Below, in pieces: positions 8,990 to 63,740 of a DNA stretch of 64,000 bases. The notes beneath the pieces were generated by a model. It made no database searches and had not been told where the DNA came from. It saw only the letters and a list, made by a program, of their open reading frames with translations. The translations under genes were made by a program, and so were the position numbers. How positions within the stretch are numbered: position 1 is the stretch's first letter; every line of letters begins with the position of its first letter. The stretch comes from Bacteroidetes bacterium GWF2_35_48. GTDB taxonomy: Bacteria; Bacteroidota; Bacteroidia; Bacteroidales; GWF2-35-48. The stretch spans positions 62,001 through 126,000 of the forward strand of contig MEOG01000089.1 of NCBI GenBank assembly GCA_001769125.1, in the 5' to 3' direction.

Positions 8990-9658
8990 CTAAAAAACCA
9001 AATTATATCCCACACCCATTATAAAATCTGTAACAGGATTGACTTCATTGTATTCTTTTTGGATTAAATAGAAAAGATCGAAACTATGTCTGCGATTTAG
9101 TTTGTATTCAAAACCCGCGCAGTACCTTACCTTGTCTAAAAAAACCTGAATGGGAGAATTAAGTGGAGTATATGTTTCAATATAGAAATAGGGAACATAA
9201 TTTTTATCAAGGTCTGCTTTTAGTGTGAATTTATTTCGTGAGTAGTAATAAAAACATAAATCATCGTCTGCTTCATATATTTCATTTTGCTGCTGCTGAA
9301 GCCTTGTGCGAAACATAAATACAAGCGGTTTTATTTTATGACGTAACGAAATATCAAAATAGAAGCGATGCCGGAGATTGTATGAATCATTAAGTTTTCT
9401 TTTCTGAATGAAACGATAATTGGCAGATAGCTTAACAAGTTTATTGATTCTATAACTCACACCTGCGTCTGTAAAAAAAGAACCCGGTTCAGAGAAATTT
9501 TCATTGAGTCTGGCTTCTTCACTTAACGTAATTGAAAAATCTGGTGTGATTTTTTTTTCTGCATTTAAACTGAGCCATGCGCCTGCATCATTTATTTGTG
9601 CAACGGACATTATTGGAAAAATAATTATGAAAAATATATAAAGATTTTTTAATTCCAT
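8990..9658 (-). CDS. DUF2490 family protein (outer-membrane beta-barrel-like)
   Basis: Signal peptide; GAWLSLNAEKKITPDFSITLSEEARLNEN; RHRFYFDISL; KLNRRHSFDLFYLIQKEYN. Confidence 0.75.
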   Translation of the reverse strand: MELKNLYIFFIIIFPIMSVAQINDAGAWLSLNAEKKITPDFSITLSEEARLNENFSEPGSFFTDAGVSYRINKLVKLSANYRFIQKRKLNDSYNLRHRFYFDISLRHKIKPLVFMFRTRLQQQQNEIYEADDDLCFYYYSRNKFTLKADLDKNYVPYFYIETYTPLNSPIQVFLDKVRYCAGFEYKLNRRHSFDLFYLIQKEYNEVNPVTDFIMGVGYNLVF

Positions 9659-9837: not shown

Positions 9838-9915
9838 AAAAACTGTTGGTGCGTTTAATTTTTACAAAACAAGAAATTCGCAACTCTTCCATATTTCAAT
9901 TTTTATTGCCACAGA
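9838..9915 (+). repeat. 78-bp dispersed repeat, copy A
   Basis: aaaaactgttggtgcgtttaatttttacaaaacaagaaattcgcaactcttccatatttcaatttttattgccacaga matches the reverse complement of 63731-63808 with about 5 mismatches. Confidence 0.85.
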
Positions 9916-9942
9916 CCCGCCTGCTACGGGCAGGTCTGTGGC
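9908..9942. repeat. strong hairpin gccacagacc...ggtctgtggc
   Basis: 10-bp perfect outer arms with a partly paired interior; lies in the gap between two gene clusters and could act as a terminator. Confidence 0.75.
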
Positions 9943-10013: not shown

Positions 10014-10766
10014 TTATTCTTTATAGTAAACCTTAATAATCGCAGTATCTCGTAAAAAATTTATTTTGGTTATTGTAAATCTTGTGATATTCAAACCTGT
10101 TCTGTTTCTAAGGTCTGCAAGCAGTTCTGCTTTTTTTTCAGGTTTAATAAGTTCTATCTTTTCATAGTTGATAATTTGCGATGATTCCTTGCGAAGCAAA
10201 AAATTTCCGTCAAACAGAAATGTGAAAATGATTATTGTTCCATTAATTAGTGCCAGCTCATGATGTTCCAGTCTTATGGCGCTGACGAGTCCTATGGCTA
10301 TAAAAACAAAAAGATAGGTCATGTCTTTTATAGATATTCCTTCTGTTCTGTATCGAAGCATGGAAAAAATAGCAAATAAGCCAAAGGCAGCCCCCATACT
10401 TATTTTTACTTTATCCAATACAAAAGTCATTAGAAAAATAACAATATTGAATATGATGAATGTAAAAATATAATCATTTTTTTTATGGATTGGATAATAA
10501 ATGGCTCCGATAATTATCATTACTGTAGCAATATTTATCATCAGATTCCAGTAAAAATGCGCATCAAGGTCAATTAGATTTTTTTTCTTTTTCTTTTTAA
10601 GTGTTTTTGCGGCATCATCAGTGGGGGGGATAATTGTTTCCGTGAAACTTTCATCTGTCTGCGTAATCAAAGATTCTGTACCCGTTTCCTGAGCATAGGA
10701 AAATTTAACAGGAGTCAGCAAAGACAAGAAAAAAATTACTAATAAAAATTTATTTATAAGACTCAT
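10014..10766 (-). CDS. DUF4956 family membrane protein
   Basis: TM-rich; KISMGAAFGLFAIFSMLRYRTEGISIKDMTYLFVFIAIGLVSAI is the DUF4956 core; 4-bp overlap with the VTC gene. Confidence 0.88.
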   Translation of the reverse strand: MSLINKFLLVIFFLSLLTPVKFSYAQETGTESLITQTDESFTETIIPPTDDAAKTLKKKKKKNLIDLDAHFYWNLMINIATVMIIIGAIYYPIHKKNDYIFTFIIFNIVIFLMTFVLDKVKISMGAAFGLFAIFSMLRYRTEGISIKDMTYLFVFIAIGLVSAIRLEHHELALINGTIIIFTFLFDGNFLLRKESSQIINYEKIELIKPEKKAELLADLRNRTGLNITRFTITKINFLRDTAIIKVYYKE

Positions 10767-11509
10767 ATCATAATTTTATTTAATGTGCGTAATTTTGGTT
10801 TAAACCTATTTTTCTTGATATGCTCATAGGTACTCACAATTCCATAGCAATATTTTGAAATAGAAACATCAGCAATTTTTTTTTCCTTCATCACGTTCAG
10901 AAAAGGAGAACTGGCAGATCTTTCCTGTTTAACTTCTGCAATAACAAGCCGTGGATATGCTTTTTCTGTTTTATAATTGTTGTAATGTAAATTCACATCA
11001 ATCGTCAACCTTTCTCCTCCGGCTTTGTTAACGAGAGTTATTCTGGTATAATAAACCCATAGTGCGGGATGCAGTGTTGATGCGATAAGAGGCGATTTTT
11101 CCACAAGTAAATCTTCTGCCCTTCCTGTTATAGTCAATGGAATTTCTTTACGTTTTATTCTGCTTTTTATCGTGCGACCTTTGTTGGTTTTAAACTTCAC
11201 TTCAAAAAAACATTGATTTGAATCCAGATAGGAACGATAGCGGACTTTGTAACGATTGAGCTTCCCGTTGTGATGCACTGTGTACAATCTGAAATCTTCC
11301 GTATCAAAATAAAGAGTTTCGTAGCGGCTGCTTTTAAGTCCATTTATTTCAAGTACTCTGTAATGCTCTTTTACAGCAGCCAGTATAGACGGCAAATGCC
11401 TCACGTTAAAAGTGAATTTTGTGTCCATGCGGTCAAGCAGTTTCACTGAATCCATTTCATCAAGTGTGATTGGGTCGAAAGAGGATAATATGTGTTGTGT
11501 GTTTGTCAA
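10763..11509 (-). CDS. VTC-domain polyphosphate polymerase family protein
   Basis: LLDRMDTKFTFNVRHLPSIL, YETLYFDTEDFRLYTVHHNGKLNRYKVRYRSY, CFFEVKFKTNKGRTIKSRIKR, LVIAEVKQER are VTC tunnel-type motifs. Confidence 0.88.
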   Translation of the reverse strand: MTNTQHILSSFDPITLDEMDSVKLLDRMDTKFTFNVRHLPSILAAVKEHYRVLEINGLKSSRYETLYFDTEDFRLYTVHHNGKLNRYKVRYRSYLDSNQCFFEVKFKTNKGRTIKSRIKRKEIPLTITGRAEDLLVEKSPLIASTLHPALWVYYTRITLVNKAGGERLTIDVNLHYNNYKTEKAYPRLVIAEVKQERSASSPFLNVMKEKKIADVSISKYCYGIVSTYEHIKKNRFKPKLRTLNKIMI

Positions 11510-11522
11510 AGGTTTTCAGATA

Positions 11523-12086
11523 TTAATAAAACTCATACGTGTACTTTTTTACCGATTTTACTGTGCCGTCAGGGTCTGTCGTTACTTTTGTTTCTTTCAG
11601 TTTTTTATTGTTATACGTATAAGTGATTTTCTTTTTCAGCGTACCTGATGCATCATAAACATTTTCTGAAACCACATTCCCATCTGCATTATGGCTGAAA
11701 ATAGTTTTTGAAACAAGTTCATTGTTTTTATATTCCAACTCTTCGGTTTTATCTTTTAATGCATTGTATTTGCAAACTTTTTTTATGTTCTTTTTATCTT
11801 TAGCATCAAAAAGAGTTTCTTCAATTTTATTATCGTACGAATCGTAAACATGCGTTTCCTTTCTTTTTAAAGAACCATCTTTTTTATAATCTTCTTTTAT
11901 AAGTAATTTCCCATCTTTTGAATAAACCGTGTATTGGTCTTTTCTTGTTTTACTGCCTTCTTCGCCTTCACTTGTTACTATTTCTGTAACAGATTTTATA
12001 TTGTGTTTTTTTATGTCTTTTTTCTTCTGTGCAGATGCTTCAGAGATAAAAAATATAAAGATTAAAGAAAGATAAATCAGTTTCAT
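11523..12086 (-). CDS. secreted repeat protein (RHS/MORN-like tandem strands)
   Basis: Signal peptide; repeating YSKDGKLLIKEDYKKDGSLKRKETHVYDSYDNKIEE and related units. Confidence 0.6.
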   Translation of the reverse strand: MKLIYLSLIFIFFISEASAQKKKDIKKHNIKSVTEIVTSEGEEGSKTRKDQYTVYSKDGKLLIKEDYKKDGSLKRKETHVYDSYDNKIEETLFDAKDKKNIKKVCKYNALKDKTEELEYKNNELVSKTIFSHNADGNVVSENVYDASGTLKKKITYTYNNKKLKETKVTTDPDGTVKSVKKYTYEFY

Positions 12087-12089
12087 GGT

Positions 12090-12488
12090 TTAATCAATTA
12101 TAATAATTTCCGGCACTTCTAATTCCTGTTTATTTTTAGTGATTTCTATGGTTTTTATTATTGGAATCAGCGCGTTTGTTTGCGATGTTGAATCTTTAGA
12201 ATATGCAAAAATATGATACGTTCCCGGTTGCAGATATTTGAATTCATAAGAGCCATCGTAGCTTGTACGCACATCATCACTTACGCCACGCGCATCTCCG
12301 TAAATTATGTAAACACGGACTTCCTGCGCGTAGAACTCATCCTGTAAAACTGTAAAAGTAGTATTGTAATCGCGTACTTTTACTTTTCCATATAAAGCGG
12401 AGCTTCCTCCTTTTCCTGCTTCTTTTTTACAGGATAGCAACAACAATGATGTTGTTGCTATTATTAACAAAAATAAACGTCTGTACAT
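12090..12488 (-). CDS. lipoprotein with carboxypeptidase-regulatory-like (SdrD B/CNA-B-type) fold
   Basis: Lipobox-like LLLLSCKK; SYDGSYEFKYLQPGTYHIFAYSKDS. Confidence 0.65.
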   Translation of the reverse strand: MYRRLFLLIIATTSLLLLSCKKEAGKGGSSALYGKVKVRDYNTTFTVLQDEFYAQEVRVYIIYGDARGVSDDVRTSYDGSYEFKYLQPGTYHIFAYSKDSTSQTNALIPIIKTIEITKNKQELEVPEIIIID

Positions 12489-12510
12489 TGTGTTTGAATT
12501 TATATGTGTA

Positions 12511-12550
12511 TGGTATGTAACATCGCTCCATGGAGCGATGCTACTACCAT
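12511..12550. repeat. palindromic element, family CTCCATGGAG, copy 1
   Basis: tggtatgtaacatcgctccatggagcgatgctactaccat is an imperfect palindrome centred on ccatgg. Confidence 0.85.
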
Positions 12551-13785
12551 ACCAATATCATTTTTACCTCATCTTCTGTTTTTACAAAATACATCCCTGC
12601 ATCCCAATTTCGCGTATCAATAGTTAAACGTCCTGTATAATTCCCGGAATAAATAATTTTTCCAAGAGAATTGAAAACCTCAACATTCTTTATGGTATTA
12701 TTACTTGTTTTCAAATTTATAAAATCGTTTGCAGGGTTCGGAAATACAGAAATTAAATCAGAAATAATTTCTTCTGTAATACCTGTATATAAATTCACTT
12801 TTGAAACTCCGTTTCCTGTTGCCACCCACGCGTTTCCAGTATTATCAATTGCCATTCGTATTATTTGTTTGTCTACAAGACCTTCTGGAACAGAATAGGA
12901 AGTAAATGTCTGCTGGTTAATGCTTGTAATTCCCCCTTCCTGATTGTAATCTGCATACATTCCTACCCACACAACATTATCAACAGGATTTACCTCAACA
13001 TCGCGAACAAATTCTATATACAACCCGTCAATAAGTCTGTAATTTGCCACCCAGTTGTTATTATTGTCAAGCTTCGTCAGCGCATAAGGAAATGTTCCTA
13101 CCCATTTATTATTATCGTCATCAATCGCAATGGCTGTAATATAATCACTTGGTAAGCTATCCATGTTTGCCTGATTTATAACCGTAAAGGAAGTCCCATT
13201 ATAAATAACAATTCCCATATCTGTTGAAAACCATTTGTTATCCTGCTCATCAATAAAAATTGAATTTATCGAAGCACTGTTGATTGATACATTACCGGGC
13301 AGACCATCAGCATAGGTGTAGGTCGTCCAGCTTGTACCATTAAGTTTTGTTACACCTGAACCATAAGTCCCAAACCAGATATTTCCGGCATCATCTCCTG
13401 CAATAGCATACACGCCATCATTCGCAAGTCCATCACTTGTTGTAAAGGTTGTCCAGATTGAGCCATTGAACTTGCTTACACCATATCCATCTGTGCCAAT
13501 CCAGATGTTATTGTCTTTATCAACCGCTATACAGGTAATATAATTATCGGCAAGACCTGTTGAATTGCTCGTATTAAAAACAGTCCAGGTATTTTCATCA
13601 AACCTTGCAACACCCGCTGCTGTGGCAAACCATTTGTTGTTTTGCGCATCTACAGCAATATCATTAACAAAATTATCGGGCAAGCCGTTTGATGTTGATT
13701 CTGCAGTAAAATTGTTGAAGGTTACCTGCGCATGAGCAAATCCGACCGTTATAGCGCACATTAAAATAGTAATTATTTTTTTCAT
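12544..13785 (-). CDS. two-component-regulator-type beta-propeller protein with T9SS sorting domain
   Basis: Repeated units such as DNYITCIAVDKDNNIWIGTDGYGVSKFNGSIWTTFTTSDGL; C-terminal VFPNPANDFINLKTSNNTIKNVEVFNSLGKIIYSGNYTG...DAGMYFVKTE. Confidence 0.85.
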   Translation of the reverse strand: MKKIITILMCAITVGFAHAQVTFNNFTAESTSNGLPDNFVNDIAVDAQNNKWFATAAGVARFDENTWTVFNTSNSTGLADNYITCIAVDKDNNIWIGTDGYGVSKFNGSIWTTFTTSDGLANDGVYAIAGDDAGNIWFGTYGSGVTKLNGTSWTTYTYADGLPGNVSINSASINSIFIDEQDNKWFSTDMGIVIYNGTSFTVINQANMDSLPSDYITAIAIDDDNNKWVGTFPYALTKLDNNNNWVANYRLIDGLYIEFVRDVEVNPVDNVVWVGMYADYNQEGGITSINQQTFTSYSVPEGLVDKQIIRMAIDNTGNAWVATGNGVSKVNLYTGITEEIISDLISVFPNPANDFINLKTSNNTIKNVEVFNSLGKIIYSGNYTGRLTIDTRNWDAGMYFVKTEDEVKMILVW

Positions 13786-13792
13786 GATGAAT

Positions 13793-15535
13793 TTATTTTA
13801 AAATGATTATTTTATGAAATTCTTTGCTGTTATCTTTCATATAAAAAAATAAAGCATACATTCCGTTTTTCATGTCTTGTACATTTATTTCATATATGTT
13901 CGAGTCTCTTAAAAGCTCTTTCCCACATGCATCCACTAATGTAACATAATTTACTTTTTCCCATACATTTGCTCCTGTGATTTGAATTTTTTCACGTACA
14001 GGATTTGGAAAAACAGTAACACGATTTTCAGAATTTGTAACACTTTTTACGCTTGTTGCATTTACATTGATTGTTACAGATGCAGTAGCAGAACAACCCA
14101 CGTTTGTGTCTGTTATTGTAACGGTATACGTACTTGTCTGAACCGGATTGACAATAGGATTTTGCTGACTGGAATTATATCCGTCTGTACCGCTCCAAGC
14201 ATAACTGTACGATGGATTTGTTTCAGATACTGATAATGCCGAAGAATTCAGATTAACAGTATTTCCCGGTTCAATATTCTGCGCAGAAGCATTTGCAGAA
14301 ACAACAGGTCCCCGTATCTGGCATTTTGTAAATCGGTATGCATGCGATGATTTTGCATTTGTTTTGGTCCATAAAATAGTTCCGGCAGAATTAACTTCAT
14401 AAATATTTGCCTGAAAATTATTAACCAGCATATTTCCGTTTGGTAATTGTTGTGAATTTCCTTCGTTTGTTGCCGTAAAAACAGCATTGTACTGGTAAGC
14501 TGATGTTGAAGGAGTGTAGGCTGTTCCGGAAGTATGAAGATAATTATATCCATTATAAGGAGGACCCCAGATATTTATTGCCGTTTTTCCACCCGTTCCC
14601 CCCTGATTATTATAAGCAGAAAGAAAATTCGGATACGTGGGATGATCGGAACATACCCAATGCGCATCATGAACTGTCGTGAAAATTTTAGTTCCGCTTG
14701 CGCTATATGCTGCCGGATTTCCCCAACGATACAAAAAGTCACCACCTTTTCCAGAATTTCCTCCGGTGTGTCCAGCGGCTTCTTCTGTAGTTGTACTGTG
14801 ATCTATTACATAAACTTCATTCATGTAATGAATACTTATAGCTATCTGATCAAGTGCTGCATTATAATCGAGTCCGTTCATGTGCCAACGATCAGGAAGC
14901 TGCCCTGAGCCTGTATAATTAATATTCAACAACTGCGGATTATCAACAATGGAAGCAACATAATTATCTTTCGATGCATTATAATTCTGGCACAAATGAT
15001 CCCACAAATGCCATTCCCAAACAATTTCACCTGTAGTGGCTCCGGTAGGTTTTACTTCAATAATTTTTTCTGACCAGAATGTAGCAGCAGTAGAAGAACC
15101 CGCCTGAGTAGCCTGAGTTGAAGATTTTACATCATACGAAATAAACAAAACATTTCCATTAGGCATGGGACAAATATCATGATGCATTTGTGTTGTTGTG
15201 GAAGAATATTGATACGACCATGCAACAGTACCATCCCATGTAACTTTCTGAATTTTTCCGGTAGTGCCTCCCTGCCCTGGCGCACCAGAAGCTTTATAAG
15301 AAGTTGTTCTGACAAGAGTGTCGCCCGGAATCAGATACGTTGAATAGGTGTTTTTGGCAGTAGAAGGGAATGTCCAGTCATGAAATGCTACAGGACTATC
15401 TGCTGTATCTATCAGGTATGCCTTAACGCCGTCTTTTGGTGCATAAAGCGTGTAGAGCCCCCATTGCTGAGAATACAAACTCATTGAAAAAAATAAAAAG
15501 GATAACACGGCTGAAAAATAAATTACTTTTCTCAT
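13793..15535 (-). CDS. arylsulfotransferase (ASST)-like protein with PKD/Ig-like and T9SS sorting domains
   Basis: HHDICPMPNGNVLFISYD, GEIVWEWHLWDHLCQN, DRWHMNGLDYNAALDQIAISIHYMNEVYVIDHS; C-terminal VFPNPVREKIQITGANVWEKVNYVTLVDACGKELL. Confidence 0.8.
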   Translation of the reverse strand: MRKVIYFSAVLSFLFFSMSLYSQQWGLYTLYAPKDGVKAYLIDTADSPVAFHDWTFPSTAKNTYSTYLIPGDTLVRTTSYKASGAPGQGGTTGKIQKVTWDGTVAWSYQYSSTTTQMHHDICPMPNGNVLFISYDVKSSTQATQAGSSTAATFWSEKIIEVKPTGATTGEIVWEWHLWDHLCQNYNASKDNYVASIVDNPQLLNINYTGSGQLPDRWHMNGLDYNAALDQIAISIHYMNEVYVIDHSTTTEEAAGHTGGNSGKGGDFLYRWGNPAAYSASGTKIFTTVHDAHWVCSDHPTYPNFLSAYNNQGGTGGKTAINIWGPPYNGYNYLHTSGTAYTPSTSAYQYNAVFTATNEGNSQQLPNGNMLVNNFQANIYEVNSAGTILWTKTNAKSSHAYRFTKCQIRGPVVSANASAQNIEPGNTVNLNSSALSVSETNPSYSYAWSGTDGYNSSQQNPIVNPVQTSTYTVTITDTNVGCSATASVTINVNATSVKSVTNSENRVTVFPNPVREKIQITGANVWEKVNYVTLVDACGKELLRDSNIYEINVQDMKNGMYALFFYMKDNSKEFHKIIILK

Positions 15536-15547
15536 AAAAATTTCAGA

Positions 15548-17821
15548 TTATTGAATTATACATTTTTTATTCTTTATTTTATCGGGATATATCACTTTTA
15601 TGAAATACACTCCCTGTGTCAGATGCCTTATATCTATTTCTTTTAAAATTACGGTACTGGCATTTTCCTGTTGAGAGAATACGGAATATGCAAGTGTTTC
15701 ACCTTGAACAGATATTAACTCAAATGATTCGGGAATTTTTGAAGCAGCAAATGTAATGAATAATTTATCATGTGCAGGGTTCGGGAAGATTTCAAACTCT
15801 GAAGTGAGTGATGGAATATTTCCTGTAAGATTATACTTTGCAGGACTTGGTTCCATATACACAAATGCGCCCGTACCATTCGGATAGCGACCTATGGACA
15901 TTGCATCAAGGGAGTGCGCAACCGGAAGTTCATCAATTATCAAATCATTGCTGTATGACAAATAAAGAGAGCTGATTTCTGATAAAAATAAATCCGAAAA
16001 GATTGTTTTATTTATCAAAAAATAATTGAAACCTTCAATACTTGTGTCTGGTAAAGCCCACTTTAAACGATTTGTTTTATCGTCTGAAAGAAAAAGATTT
16101 TTCAGATTGAGTTTTTCCGGACTTGTGTTGTACAATTCAATCCAGTTGTTTTCTGCAAGGAAATCAGAGTGGAAAAGCTCATTAATATTGATTGTTCCGG
16201 GTGTTACTTTCTGAAAAATCGTGTGAAATTCGTATTCGGCTCTTTCAGGAGAAAATATTCCGGCACTGTCATTTTCTGCCCAGATAAAATATTGTATCGT
16301 ATTTTTTTCAGGAAAGATTGATGCCCCGAAAATACTGTCACCGGCAAGTTCATCGTTATGATTGCCATCATCAAACATCTGAACCTTTTGAAATAAATCA
16401 TATTTTGAAAAACGGTAGAAAATAACTACGCTGTCTGCGTCCGAAATTTTTGTGGTAATATAAGTTTGCTGATTTTTTTCAGGAAAAGAAGGATACGATT
16501 GCAATTGAGAAATAACCGGAGAACCGCAAAAACCGGGAACAGTTTCAAGATATCCGAGCCGTCCGTTTTCATCCATCAAATTTTTTATTCCGGGATAACC
16601 CGAAGAAATCGTTGCAGGCGATGCAGCAGGTCGTACCGTAGAATCAATATTATTTATAAAATCTGCATGAGAATAAAATTTATTCGTATCATTCAAAACA
16701 TACGGTTCAAGAATGTTCTGAAGACTTTTACCAAGCTCAAAGTATTCACTATTCCTGATGTTTTCATTCATAATGGTACGTATGTGCGCCATGAACATTT
16801 TACGGTATGTACTGTTTACTATCAAATTTTTTATCAACGGGCGCGGAGGAAATGTAGGAGATGAAAAAGTTACAAACTTTAGCGGGTTCAGCTTCTTCAT
16901 GTTTTCAATGTTTATGGTATTGACGGATGTCCCATCAGTATACCTGAAACTTCCGAAAGACATATTCATATCCCACGGAATGGTATTGTAGCGACCGTGT
17001 TCATCCATATACAGATAATAATTTTGCGCATAGCCGATATAACTGTCGAGATTCAGTATTGAATAATTCAGCGCGTGCATCCACAGGGCACGATCTACAT
17101 TCAAAACATTTTCTATATTATCAGAATTATTATTCAATATTTGTATAAAATTCACAAGACTTAACCAGCCTGTGTCAGACTCCATTTTGTAAAAAGGCTG
17201 GTATGCTGTGGTATCTGTTCCCGGAGCACTGCCCAGATTGGAATTGGGTGCTAGTGGACTTTCAACAAAATTTTCAGGAGCTCCTTTAAAAAACGGATTT
17301 GATTTAGAGCCGAAATGTTTCTTTACAAAAGCTTTATCAATAGCCTCCACACAACTGTACAAGCCGATTAATGTATCATTAACATAAACATTAGCAAAAC
17401 CAGATTTTGGAACAGGCATGTATTTTCCCGCGATATGATAAGCTATTGCTTCGCGTACAAAAGAAGGGTCGTGAATAACATTGCTGAGTTTTATTTTTTT
17501 ATATCCTCCGTAGTTCTGATCTTCAAAACAATAATCAAGATCAATATTGAAAGGATTTTTTGAAAAAAGAGAATTATGAGAACTGTTTCCTTTATATCTT
17601 ATACCTGCTTTTTTTAATAATTTTTCATTAATAATAATATCTCCGATTAAGCGTCCGTCTTCGCCAACATGCTCGTATAAGCTATCTAAAATATAGTCCC
17701 AATTGCGTTCTTTAAATGTAATCCTTATATTATGAACACTTGTCGCATTATAAAAATCATCCTGTGCAAAAAGAGCGAAACTCATCAGAAAAAAGAAAAA
17801 CAATGAGAATAAAAAGTTCAT
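15548..17821 (-). CDS. CotH kinase family protein with T9SS sorting domain
   Basis: GIRYKGNSS, LDYCFEDQNYGGYKKIKLSNVIHDPSFVREAIAYHI, GLYSCVEAIDKAFVKKHFG, YLYMDEHGRYNTIPWDMNMSFG; C-terminal IFPNPAHDKLFITF. Confidence 0.88.
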   Translation of the reverse strand: MNFLFSLFFFFLMSFALFAQDDFYNATSVHNIRITFKERNWDYILDSLYEHVGEDGRLIGDIIINEKLLKKAGIRYKGNSSHNSLFSKNPFNIDLDYCFEDQNYGGYKKIKLSNVIHDPSFVREAIAYHIAGKYMPVPKSGFANVYVNDTLIGLYSCVEAIDKAFVKKHFGSKSNPFFKGAPENFVESPLAPNSNLGSAPGTDTTAYQPFYKMESDTGWLSLVNFIQILNNNSDNIENVLNVDRALWMHALNYSILNLDSYIGYAQNYYLYMDEHGRYNTIPWDMNMSFGSFRYTDGTSVNTINIENMKKLNPLKFVTFSSPTFPPRPLIKNLIVNSTYRKMFMAHIRTIMNENIRNSEYFELGKSLQNILEPYVLNDTNKFYSHADFINNIDSTVRPAASPATISSGYPGIKNLMDENGRLGYLETVPGFCGSPVISQLQSYPSFPEKNQQTYITTKISDADSVVIFYRFSKYDLFQKVQMFDDGNHNDELAGDSIFGASIFPEKNTIQYFIWAENDSAGIFSPERAEYEFHTIFQKVTPGTININELFHSDFLAENNWIELYNTSPEKLNLKNLFLSDDKTNRLKWALPDTSIEGFNYFLINKTIFSDLFLSEISSLYLSYSNDLIIDELPVAHSLDAMSIGRYPNGTGAFVYMEPSPAKYNLTGNIPSLTSEFEIFPNPAHDKLFITFAASKIPESFELISVQGETLAYSVFSQQENASTVILKEIDIRHLTQGVYFIKVIYPDKIKNKKCIIQ

Positions 17822-18027: not shown

Positions 18028-18100
18028 TTACCGATGATGTTGGTAAATGTAGGTACGTTCCATGGAGCGTACCTACAATACCGATATCAATCATCGGTAA
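18028..18100. repeat. palindromic element, family CTCCATGGAG, copy 2 (extended arms)
   Basis: Outer arms ttaccgatga/tcatcggtaa and core gtaggtacgttccatggagcgtacctac. Confidence 0.88.
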
Positions 18101-18136: not shown

Positions 18137-20290
18137 ATGAAACAATCTTTAATTTTAATATTTTTAATTTTATCTGGTGTTTTATTTGCGCAGCATCCCT
18201 CTATTGGTGGGTACAATGTATATTACGGGCATTTACACAATCACACCAGCGTATCTGACGGTACAGGAACAACTACGCAAGCATACACCTACGCAAGAGA
18301 TTCTGCGCATCTTGATTTTTTCAGCCTAGCAGATCATTGTATGTTTTTCACTTCTTCTTCATGGAGTGATTATAAAACCACCGCACAAAGTTTTAATCAG
18401 GACAGTGTTTTTGTTGCATTCTGGGGCTTTGAATGGTCGAGTAACTTTACCTATGGTCATGTTGCAGTGATAAACACAGACGATCACACCTCATCTCTTT
18501 ATACGGGTACAACAACGTTTTCTGGTCTGTGCGACTGGCTTTCAACACGTGAAGGGGTTGCATTTTTTAACCATCCGGGCAGAGAAAATTCTTTCGACAT
18601 GGAGTTTAACCTGTTTGAGCCTCCTGTCAGTGAAAAATTCGTTGGAATGGAGCTTTGGAACAAGAGTGAAGGGTTTACAGGTTTTTATTATAATGATGGC
18701 TATTATGAAAATGATGGCAATCTGGGTTATTTTGACGAAGCGCTGGTTCGCGGTTGGAAAATAGGTGCAACAGGCTCTGAAGATAACCATGATGCAACAT
18801 GGGGAAATGGTACTGAAAGCAGAATGGCTGTATTATCACAACATTTAACAAAATCTGATATTTATACAGCATTTAAAGCGCGGCGATTTTTTTCCACGCT
18901 CGATAAAAACATTGCGCTCTCTTTTAAAATAGATACGTTTGAAATGGGCTCCACTACTATAAATGGAAGTAAAATTTTTCACATTCAGGCAACAGATGGT
19001 GATGGAGAATTGTTTACAAAAGTGCAACTTTTCCGCAAAGGTTTTTTATTTCAGACATGGGAGGGTCTTTACCCTGTTATTGACATCAGCTTTGAAATTC
19101 CGGTATACGGAAACGAATATTATTACGTAAAAATCACACAGGAAGACGGACAGGAGGCAATATCTTCACCGATTTGGGTAACAGGAGCAAGCAACCAGCC
19201 TCCTTTTATCAGTATTATAACGCCACAAAACGGAGCTACTTTTTACGCAGAAGACAGTCTTACAATTTCTGCAACAGGAAATGATTCTGATGGCACAATT
19301 TCTTTTGTTGATTTTTATTTTGACGGAATCTTTATTGGTACAGACTCTTCCGTACAATATCAATTTACAGTTAATAATCTTTTAACCGGAAATCACTGGT
19401 TGTTTTGCAAGGCTGCTGATAATGCAGGAGCTGTATCATTTTCAGATACTATTTATTTTACAGTACAGCCCGACTCAGGAATAATTTTTATAGAAACGCC
19501 TATCTCCATCGGAAACAATGATGCAGAAGAAATTCTTCTGGGACAGATTTACCTGACAAGTTCAGATATTGAATTGGTCTATGATAGTTTTGTTACAGGA
19601 GATCAGACAGTGGGCTTACGCTTCGAGAATACAGGGCTTCCAAACGACGCAACCATAACCCGGGCTTATATCCGGTTTACAGCTTCCGATACAAATAGCG
19701 ATGCATGCGACCTTGTCATAAAGGGAGAAGCCTCTGACAACGCAACAATATTCTTGAGTCAAACATCTGATATTTCTTCCCGGATTACAACATCGGCTTC
19801 TGTTTTGTGGTTTCCCGCAGCATGGAATACAGTCGGTGCATCGGACAGCACCCACACGACACCGGATTTATCTTGTATTGTTCAGGAAATAGTAAGTCGT
19901 CCGGGGTTTGGAAATAACAGTCCGCTTTGTTTTATAATAACCGGATCTGGAACACGTTCTGCTTATGCTTACGAAGGCGATCCAACAAAGGCTGCTATTT
20001 TGCATATTGAATATGTTCAGTCTCTTCATGAGAATAAAAATAAAACGAACACAACAGAATTTATTATTTATCCCAATCCGGCACGAAACAAATTGTTTAT
20101 TAAAGCAAATCATTTTACGGAGCCCTGCCTTGTTGAAATTTACAATTTTTCAGGTCAGAAAGTATCAACATTTTCTCTTATTAAAAATAATCAAGAAATA
20201 GATTTGCATAGATTTAACGCGGGGATTTATCTTTTGAAAATTATAAATTCCGATGACATATTGTATGCTTACAAGATTATGTTATGGTAA
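18137..20290 (+). CDS. secreted PHP-domain (CehA/McbA-like) metallohydrolase with Ig-like, DNRLRE/CBM96-like and T9SS sorting domains
   Basis: YYGHLHNHTSVSDGTGTTTQAYTYARDSAHLDFFSLADHC; GVAFFNHPGRENSFD; TGSEDNHDATWG; C-terminal IYPNPARNKLFIKA. Confidence 0.83.
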   Translation: MKQSLILIFLILSGVLFAQHPSIGGYNVYYGHLHNHTSVSDGTGTTTQAYTYARDSAHLDFFSLADHCMFFTSSSWSDYKTTAQSFNQDSVFVAFWGFEWSSNFTYGHVAVINTDDHTSSLYTGTTTFSGLCDWLSTREGVAFFNHPGRENSFDMEFNLFEPPVSEKFVGMELWNKSEGFTGFYYNDGYYENDGNLGYFDEALVRGWKIGATGSEDNHDATWGNGTESRMAVLSQHLTKSDIYTAFKARRFFSTLDKNIALSFKIDTFEMGSTTINGSKIFHIQATDGDGELFTKVQLFRKGFLFQTWEGLYPVIDISFEIPVYGNEYYYVKITQEDGQEAISSPIWVTGASNQPPFISIITPQNGATFYAEDSLTISATGNDSDGTISFVDFYFDGIFIGTDSSVQYQFTVNNLLTGNHWLFCKAADNAGAVSFSDTIYFTVQPDSGIIFIETPISIGNNDAEEILLGQIYLTSSDIELVYDSFVTGDQTVGLRFENTGLPNDATITRAYIRFTASDTNSDACDLVIKGEASDNATIFLSQTSDISSRITTSASVLWFPAAWNTVGASDSTHTTPDLSCIVQEIVSRPGFGNNSPLCFIITGSGTRSAYAYEGDPTKAAILHIEYVQSLHENKNKTNTTEFIIYPNPARNKLFIKANHFTEPCLVEIYNFSGQKVSTFSLIKNNQEIDLHRFNAGIYLLKIINSDDILYAYKIMLW

Positions 20291-63447: not shown

Positions 63448-63740
63448 TTGCCACAGATTCACAGATTCAAAATTATTCCATGAGTTAGAACGGTTATTAA
63501 TTAGTGCCAGCAAGAAAACTCATGTTTTTTGCTCACAATGTATGTGCCTGCAAGAAAACATCAAGTTCAAGGCTTGCGAAGACCTGAAAATTAGGAGTGT
63601 ACTAATGTACATGACTACTTTTCAGGTCAAGCGTAACGATGAAATTGATGTTTTCTTGCAGGCACTAATTATCACAAAACAAACAAGCTTTGCTTGTTTG
63701 AAACCTGCCAGACGCAGGCTGGTCTGTGAATCTGTGGCAA
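63448..63740. repeat. large nested palindromic element
   Basis: Outer arms ttgccacagattcacaga/tctgtgaatctgtggcaa (18 bp perfect); inner arms tgcctgcaagaaaacatcaa/ttgatgttttcttgcaggca (20 bp perfect); innermost gacctgaaaa/ttttcaggtc (10 bp perfect). Confidence 0.92.

Follow-up and report, generated by a model that had tools for sequence, protein, structure and literature searches.

A Bacteroidales operon that may link polyphosphate synthesis to kinase and sulfotransferase modification of the cell surface

The window analyzed here, a stretch of 64,000 nucleotides from Bacteroidetes bacterium GWF2_35_48, harbors an operon which, judged from its relatives, appears to comprise eight genes, including one for a DUF2490 outer-membrane barrel. 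We propose, with a probability slightly under one half (about 0.48), that this operon specifies a surface-modification system in which a VTC protein and its DUF4956 partner would make and export polyphosphate serving a CotH kinase at the cell surface, and an ASST-type enzyme would add sulfate. Secreted bacterial kinases are widely encoded, and with little or no ATP outside the cell the phosphate source of an extracellular kinase is a question to which an operon that brings together a polyphosphate polymerase of the cytosol, genes for envelope transport and a kinase of the cell surface would offer a direct and testable answer. If correct, the proposal would give a concrete role to prokaryotic VTC proteins and to the uncharacterized DUF4956 and DUF2490 families and, together with the ASST, define a route by which the cell surface could be phosphorylated and sulfated with neither ATP nor PAPS on the outside.

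Results

Seven compact minus-strand open reading frames were verified between positions 10014 and 17821, and both their coordinates and their Pfam matches agree with the gene order and families proposed in a sequence-only reading of this DNA. They are listed below together with the putative eighth member.

15548..17821, minus strand: CotH-family secreted kinase with a T9SS tail, 757 aa (Pfam CotH 5.5e-44, Por_Secre_tail 2.5e-10)
13793..15535, minus strand: ASST-type PAPS-independent sulfotransferase, predicted T9SS cargo, 580 aa (Pfam Arylsulfotrans 8.7e-13 and Por_Secre_tail)
12544..13785, minus strand: Reg_prop beta-propeller with a T9SS tail, 413 aa (Pfam Reg_prop 9e-24, Por_Secre_tail 2.1e-12)
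12090..12488, minus strand: small lipoprotein with an LLSC lipobox, 132 aa (from the sequence; weak carboxypeptidase-regulatory-like Pfam matches only)
11523..12086, minus strand: predicted exported Lys-rich repeat protein, 187 aa (signal peptide and repeats; weak MORN/RHS Pfam matches)
10763..11509, minus strand: VTC-type polyphosphate polymerase, predicted cytosolic, 248 aa (Pfam VTC 1.3e-29)
10014..10766, minus strand: DUF4956 membrane partner of VTC, 250 aa (Pfam 6e-53)
8990..9658, minus strand: predicted DUF2490 outer-membrane beta-barrel, 222 aa, eighth member of the set (Pfam 1.7e-27)

The intergenic distances within the seven-gene cluster are 12, 7, 55, 3, 13 and -4 bp; the small gaps and the 4-bp overlap had been described correctly, and the 55-bp gap had been omitted. 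The sorting domains ascribed to CotH, the ASST and the propeller are likewise present, Por_Secre_tail being found on all three. The extent given to the cluster was right for the seven genes but overlooked DUF2490, the next minus-strand gene beyond DUF4956, from which it is separated by 355 bp containing a hairpin. Scans for sigma-70 promoters and terminators returned matches no commoner than in shuffled sequence.

The same gene set was found in six other genomes (G001, G027, G040, G054, G086 and G093), one belonging to the same genus and five to other families of the order. In all six the ASST, propeller, CotH, lipoprotein, repeat protein, VTC and DUF4956 genes occur together, with slight shifts of order among the first three, and DUF2490 comes after DUF4956 in all except G001; in nearly all relatives with the layout of the window it follows immediately. 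In G001 DUF4956 is truncated and followed by a 434-aa open reading frame. A further genome, G065, retains the other members of the set and carries VTC and DUF4956 on a different contig. In addition, the Reg_prop propeller lies beside CotH/ASST in many Bacteroidales copies, and in many loci an orthologue of the lipoprotein immediately precedes the repeat protein or VTC. Since six other genomes carry the same set and named relatives repeat it, the gene order is not due to chance, and the dispersal in close relatives that would have spoken against the sequence-only reading is not what we observe.

The pairing of VTC with DUF4956 is nearly invariable. We sampled 98 genomes of the order, which represent different families almost without exception; in 53 of 54 loci the neighbor of VTC on its strand is DUF4956, and in control genomes the two show identical presence. 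In nine genomes of that sample VTC has an ASST gene on its own strand no more than 15 kb away. A genome-wide scan with an ASST alignment gave 80 named loci, part of them on contigs also present in the order sample, of which 44 have CotH, 22 VTC and 20 both; rough gene densities would predict 0.8 and 0.2 for CotH and VTC, respectively, the CotH density being derived from an approximate count. These figures rest on kinase-only CotH and ASST-core profiles, the T9SS tails in common having inflated the CotH count to 51/80. Among ASST-CotH loci with no VTC nearby, VTC is found elsewhere in the genome in 18/24 cases against 11/26 (p = 0.025), a weak comparison, as its reference group holds other phyla. 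Several families of Bacteroidota share the ASST-CotH-VTC-DUF4956 association, and Zixibacteriota and Stahlbacteria have it in a rearranged form. A tree of VTC proteins places ASST linkage on two deep lineages, with Calditrichota, Stahlbacteria and Zixibacteriota included in one of them, and well-supported branches force at least four changes of the linkage label; the rows of this tree were partly picked through ASST, and ASST enrichment within it thus means little. The presence of an ASST, which had looked unusual in the sequence-only reading, recurs across Bacteroidota and three other phyla.

VTC implies CotH. In a sample of 197 genomes of the phylum, CotH is present in 37/37 VTC-bearing genomes and in 45/160 lacking VTC (Fisher 1.9e-17, kinship ignored), and in the order sample the corresponding values are 41/50 and 18/48, again ignoring kinship; nine VTC genomes of the order have no detected CotH. 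The reverse fails, as 18 of the 59 CotH genomes of the order are without VTC, and CotH does not strictly need it. A third VTC lineage has large lipoproteins next to DUF4956/VTC, several of which are divergent members of the CotH family, and VTC and CotH adjoin in three separate VTC lineages altogether. ATP is the phosphate donor of the characterized CotH, a Ser/Thr kinase of spore coat proteins. Together with the frequent occurrence of CotH without VTC, this leaves room for an explanation in which the surface enzymes and VTC would be co-regulated without common chemistry, exported polyphosphate serving as a polyanion of the matrix or as a store of phosphate and CotH using ATP from lysis or leakage. 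We regard this explanation as unlikely but worth taking seriously; against it stand the scarcity of VTC without CotH and the adjacency of the two in separate lineages.

The active sites of the three putative enzymes were compared with those of structurally known homologues. Single-sequence searches of the PDB yielded no useful match; profiles were informative. The VTC domain of the window scores 103.9 bits against a curated cut-off of 23 (PF09359), and a profile of 32 VTC proteins matches yeast Vtc4 (3g3q) with an E-value of 1.2e-20 over the whole catalytic domain. Residues K31, R90, R92, K105, R156 and K219, invariant in the 32 homologues, align with K200, R264, R266, K281, R361 and K458 of Vtc4, which we take to be residues of the catalytic tunnel (for K200, R264, R266 and K458 the numbering was confirmed by a residue count along the alignment); the position of Vtc4 R253 is occupied by His in the VTC lineage of the window. 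The CYTH superfamily is functionally diverse, and the protein might accordingly be a different CYTH-fold enzyme, for example a triphosphatase, and not a polyphosphate polymerase; however, the match along the entire catalytic domain and the retention of the six tunnel residues make this improbable. No signal peptide is apparent in the VTC sequence. The genome also encodes PPK1; ordinary storage of polyphosphate therefore does not require VTC, which is unlikely to be the sole source of the polymer.

DUF4956 has five predicted membrane helices followed by a C-terminal ferredoxin/ACT-like domain (model pLDDT 80.9). A Foldseek search with this model gave nothing below 1e-3, the matches being mainly ACT-like. 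As DUF4956 shows no resemblance to the membrane channel of yeast VTC, homology between the two was rejected.

The CotH profile matches CotH of B. cereus (5jd9) with an E-value of 1e-19. N257, D259 and D284 are invariant in 15 homologues, and through 5jd9 the two aspartates align with D228 and D251 of CotH, whose replacement leaves the B. subtilis enzyme, a spore-coat Ser/Thr kinase, inactive (PMC7821199). The protein of the window, possessing the PF08757 domain and both catalytic aspartates, is thus a predicted kinase. Missing active-site residues in CotH or VTC would have argued against the sequence-only reading, and alignment shows them intact in both proteins.

For the ASST, whose family was tied to E. 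coli AssT through a canonical homologue, H119, H218 and H289 align with H252, H356 and H436 of that enzyme, H289 corresponding to the sulfurylated histidine; the site is fixed in the alignment by structure 4p04, which carries Asn in place of the wild-type H436. All three histidines are conserved in the family, and the catalytic residues are in this respect in place. The position of Arg374 is His236 in the window, His in most family members and Arg in some paralogues. This substitution and a modest Pfam score would suit an interpretation of the ASST-like and Reg_prop propellers as binding or structural surface proteins with no enzymatic function, the real operon being reduced to the CotH/VTC/DUF4956 triad; the conservation of the three active-site histidines, including the one sulfurylated in AssT, speaks against it, and we hold it to be unlikely.

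Signal-peptide-like N-termini were read from the sequences of CotH, the ASST, the propeller, the repeat protein and DUF2490. As the genome encodes the T9SS translocon SprA, the first three combine what is expected of T9SS cargo, namely a signal peptide, a C-terminal sorting domain and a T9SS in the genome. The Lys content of the repeat protein family averages 18.1%, compared with a 99th percentile of 13.8% for other open reading frames of these loci, and this predicted exported protein is a plausible polyanion binder.

Several of the neighboring genes look like components of envelope transport. The DUF2490 model (pLDDT 85.6) contains 11 predicted strands, and its best TM-scores are to KdgM and NanC, porins for acidic oligosaccharides, and to the polysaccharide exporter PgaA, with AlgE also among the matches; the values for KdgM/NanC, 0.43-0.57, are borderline, and the matches ranked higher by E-value are VDAC/TOM barrels which superpose poorly. 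In the model, six of six conserved charged residues lie on the polar strand face, and the lumen contains 18 K/R against 10 D/E. Compared with a KdgM/NanC-type porin, which is 12-stranded with an Arg-lined lumen, DUF2490 has 11 predicted strands and conserved Arg on the polar face, with no sequence family link. In the second VTC lineage an HlyD-like adaptor, with weak Pfam matches, is encoded directly upstream of VTC, and two genomes of the phylum, G283 and G333, show the order adaptor-VTC-DUF4956-CotH, their HlyD-like adaptor also being weak by Pfam. A candidate VTC fusion in G283 (a 787-aa open frame) was rejected as merely a long upstream frame in high-GC DNA over the separate adaptor gene. 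A TolC-like OEP gene (8e-27) follows DUF4956 in G028, and in a Stahlbacteria genome its place is taken by a phosphate-selective porin O/P (5.5e-16); P. aeruginosa OprO, of the same porin family, is known to prefer pyrophosphate and polyphosphate.

Discussion

Based on the conserved catalytic residues, we hypothesize that VTC polymerizes the terminal phosphate of ATP into polyphosphate in the cytosol, and the partner genes suggest that DUF4956 would act as its inner-membrane partner and that the polymer might leave the cell through the DUF2490 barrel, in the second VTC lineage with the help of an HlyD-type adaptor. Outside the cell, CotH delivered by the T9SS would phosphorylate a surface or matrix protein, with the exported polyphosphate serving either as phosphate donor or, together with the Lys-rich repeat protein, as a polyanionic matrix, two roles between which the sequence cannot decide. 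The ASST, similarly delivered, may use phenolic sulfates as donors and sulfate this surface material as well. A more specific version of this scheme, in which polyphosphate exported by VTC/DUF4956 is itself the phosphoryl donor of the secreted CotH, an extracellular kinase working without ATP beside a PAPS-independent ASST that needs no cytosolic donor, is speculative and in our judgement rather unlikely. The sequence-only reading had already suggested that VTC/DUF4956 supply a polymer to an extracellular kinase, and this part of it gains support from the envelope-transport partners and from the pattern that VTC implies CotH; export and use as a donor are still our conjecture. Points against the proposal are the CotH genomes without VTC, the nine VTC genomes of the order with no CotH detected, the missing fold match of DUF4956, the borderline TM-scores of the barrel, the weak adaptor matches and the His at the Arg374 position of the ASST. 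The VTC-implies-CotH pattern appears undescribed in the literature searched.

The CotH/VTC/DUF4956 triad itself is already known. In Gram-positive Pel operons, CotH, a polyphosphate polymerase and DUF4956 are encoded as an accessory module (PMC7112168). S. intermedius mutants lacking the membrane gene or cotH of the equivalent triad aggregate less and have a changed level of Pel; no aggregation phenotype is reported for deletion of the VTC gene, SIR_1593 (PMC12345266). The first two phenotypes count in favor of the proposed surface-modification system, the VTC result against it. The place of the triad in Pel operons and the altered Pel level would also suit a module that tunes or decorates an exopolysaccharide, with CotH and VTC/DUF4956 acting on export of the polymer or phosphorylating the glycan. 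We consider this quite unlikely for the operon of the window: none of its eight genes (0/8) has a match to a glycosyltransferase or to a polysaccharide synthase, and in Bacteroidota the copies are accompanied by conserved partners of their own. According to the open reading frame list and Pfam, no Pel genes are among the operon and its immediate neighbors, and the triad is not contiguous with pelDEADAFG. The authors of the S. intermedius study found no synteny of the triad outside Pel loci (PMC12345266); in the genomes examined here it is present in operons without Pel genes.

The proposed surface-modification system thus shares with the Pel accessory module (PMC7112168, PMC12345266) three contiguous families, a secreted CotH, VTC and a membrane DUF4956, but lacks Pel and adds a T9SS-type ASST and propeller, a lipoprotein, a Lys-rich protein and an outer-membrane barrel. 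A literature search, most subscription journals being outside its reach, found no paper in which CotH is paired with ASST, and the form combining ASST, T9SS and exporter appears undescribed in the literature searched. In NELoc-2 of C. perfringens, CotH also lies by VTC-domain genes, with a small membrane gene, annotated as a tubulin/FtsZ GTPase, beside each VTC (PMC2879425); unlike the operon of the window, that locus is Gram-positive and has no ASST, T9SS or outer-membrane parts. With the yeast VTC complex (Vtc4, 3g3q, 8i6v) the operon has in common the VTC catalytic domain and a polymerase coupled to a membrane protein, which here is a separate one, DUF4956, with no detectable similarity to the yeast membrane domain, and an SPX domain is lacking. 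E. coli AssT (3elq) displays the same three active-site histidines, whereas the ASST of the window is distant in sequence, has a T9SS tail and belongs to a family in which the Arg374 position is usually His. Likewise, the spore-coat kinase CotH of Bacillus (5jd9) shares the kinase domain, by sequence profile, and the catalytic aspartates, but the CotH of the window is predicted to be exported by the T9SS, has a long C-terminal region and, if active, would act outside the cell.

Flanks of the operon

A strong hairpin, CCACAGACCCGCCTGC...GCAGGTCTGTGG, occupies positions 9909-9942 of the window, between the DUF4956 gene and the gene encoding the DUF2490 outer-membrane barrel, and a related copy with two mismatches is found at 63714 of the same window. 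The hairpin looks like a dispersed repeat and, as such, may be the cause of the split between the DUF2490 gene and the operon. At the opposite end, an inverted repeat, TACCGATGATG ... ATCATCGGTA (window 18029-18100), is located 5' of CotH in the divergent intergenic region, and the operon is adjoined by the following gene:

window 18137-20290, divergent from the operon: T9SS-exported metallohydrolase of the CehA/McbA family

Related loci in other genomes

In the same-genus relative G001, the operon (locus L032, 5071-18553) harbors three or more ASST paralogues alongside two propellers, and its DUF4956 ORF is cut to 101 aa. Among members of the third VTC lineage, the large lipoproteins adjoining VTC at loci L149, L146 and L166 are divergent CotH proteins; other lipoproteins of comparable size and position in this lineage display no Pfam CotH match.

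Relatives of the ASST family of the operon are also found in marine archaea, in MAGs of Poseidoniales and other Euryarchaeota (loci L113, L115, L119, L122, L123 and L127), and neither CotH nor VTC was detected near ASST at these loci. In Zixibacteriota, ASST is adjoined by a sulfatase-modifying-factor-like (FGE) protein (Pfam, 8.2e-48), which a Calditrichota ORF resembles, a likeness judged by eye only. These observations concern two loci:

L103 6435-7385
L116 4991-5938
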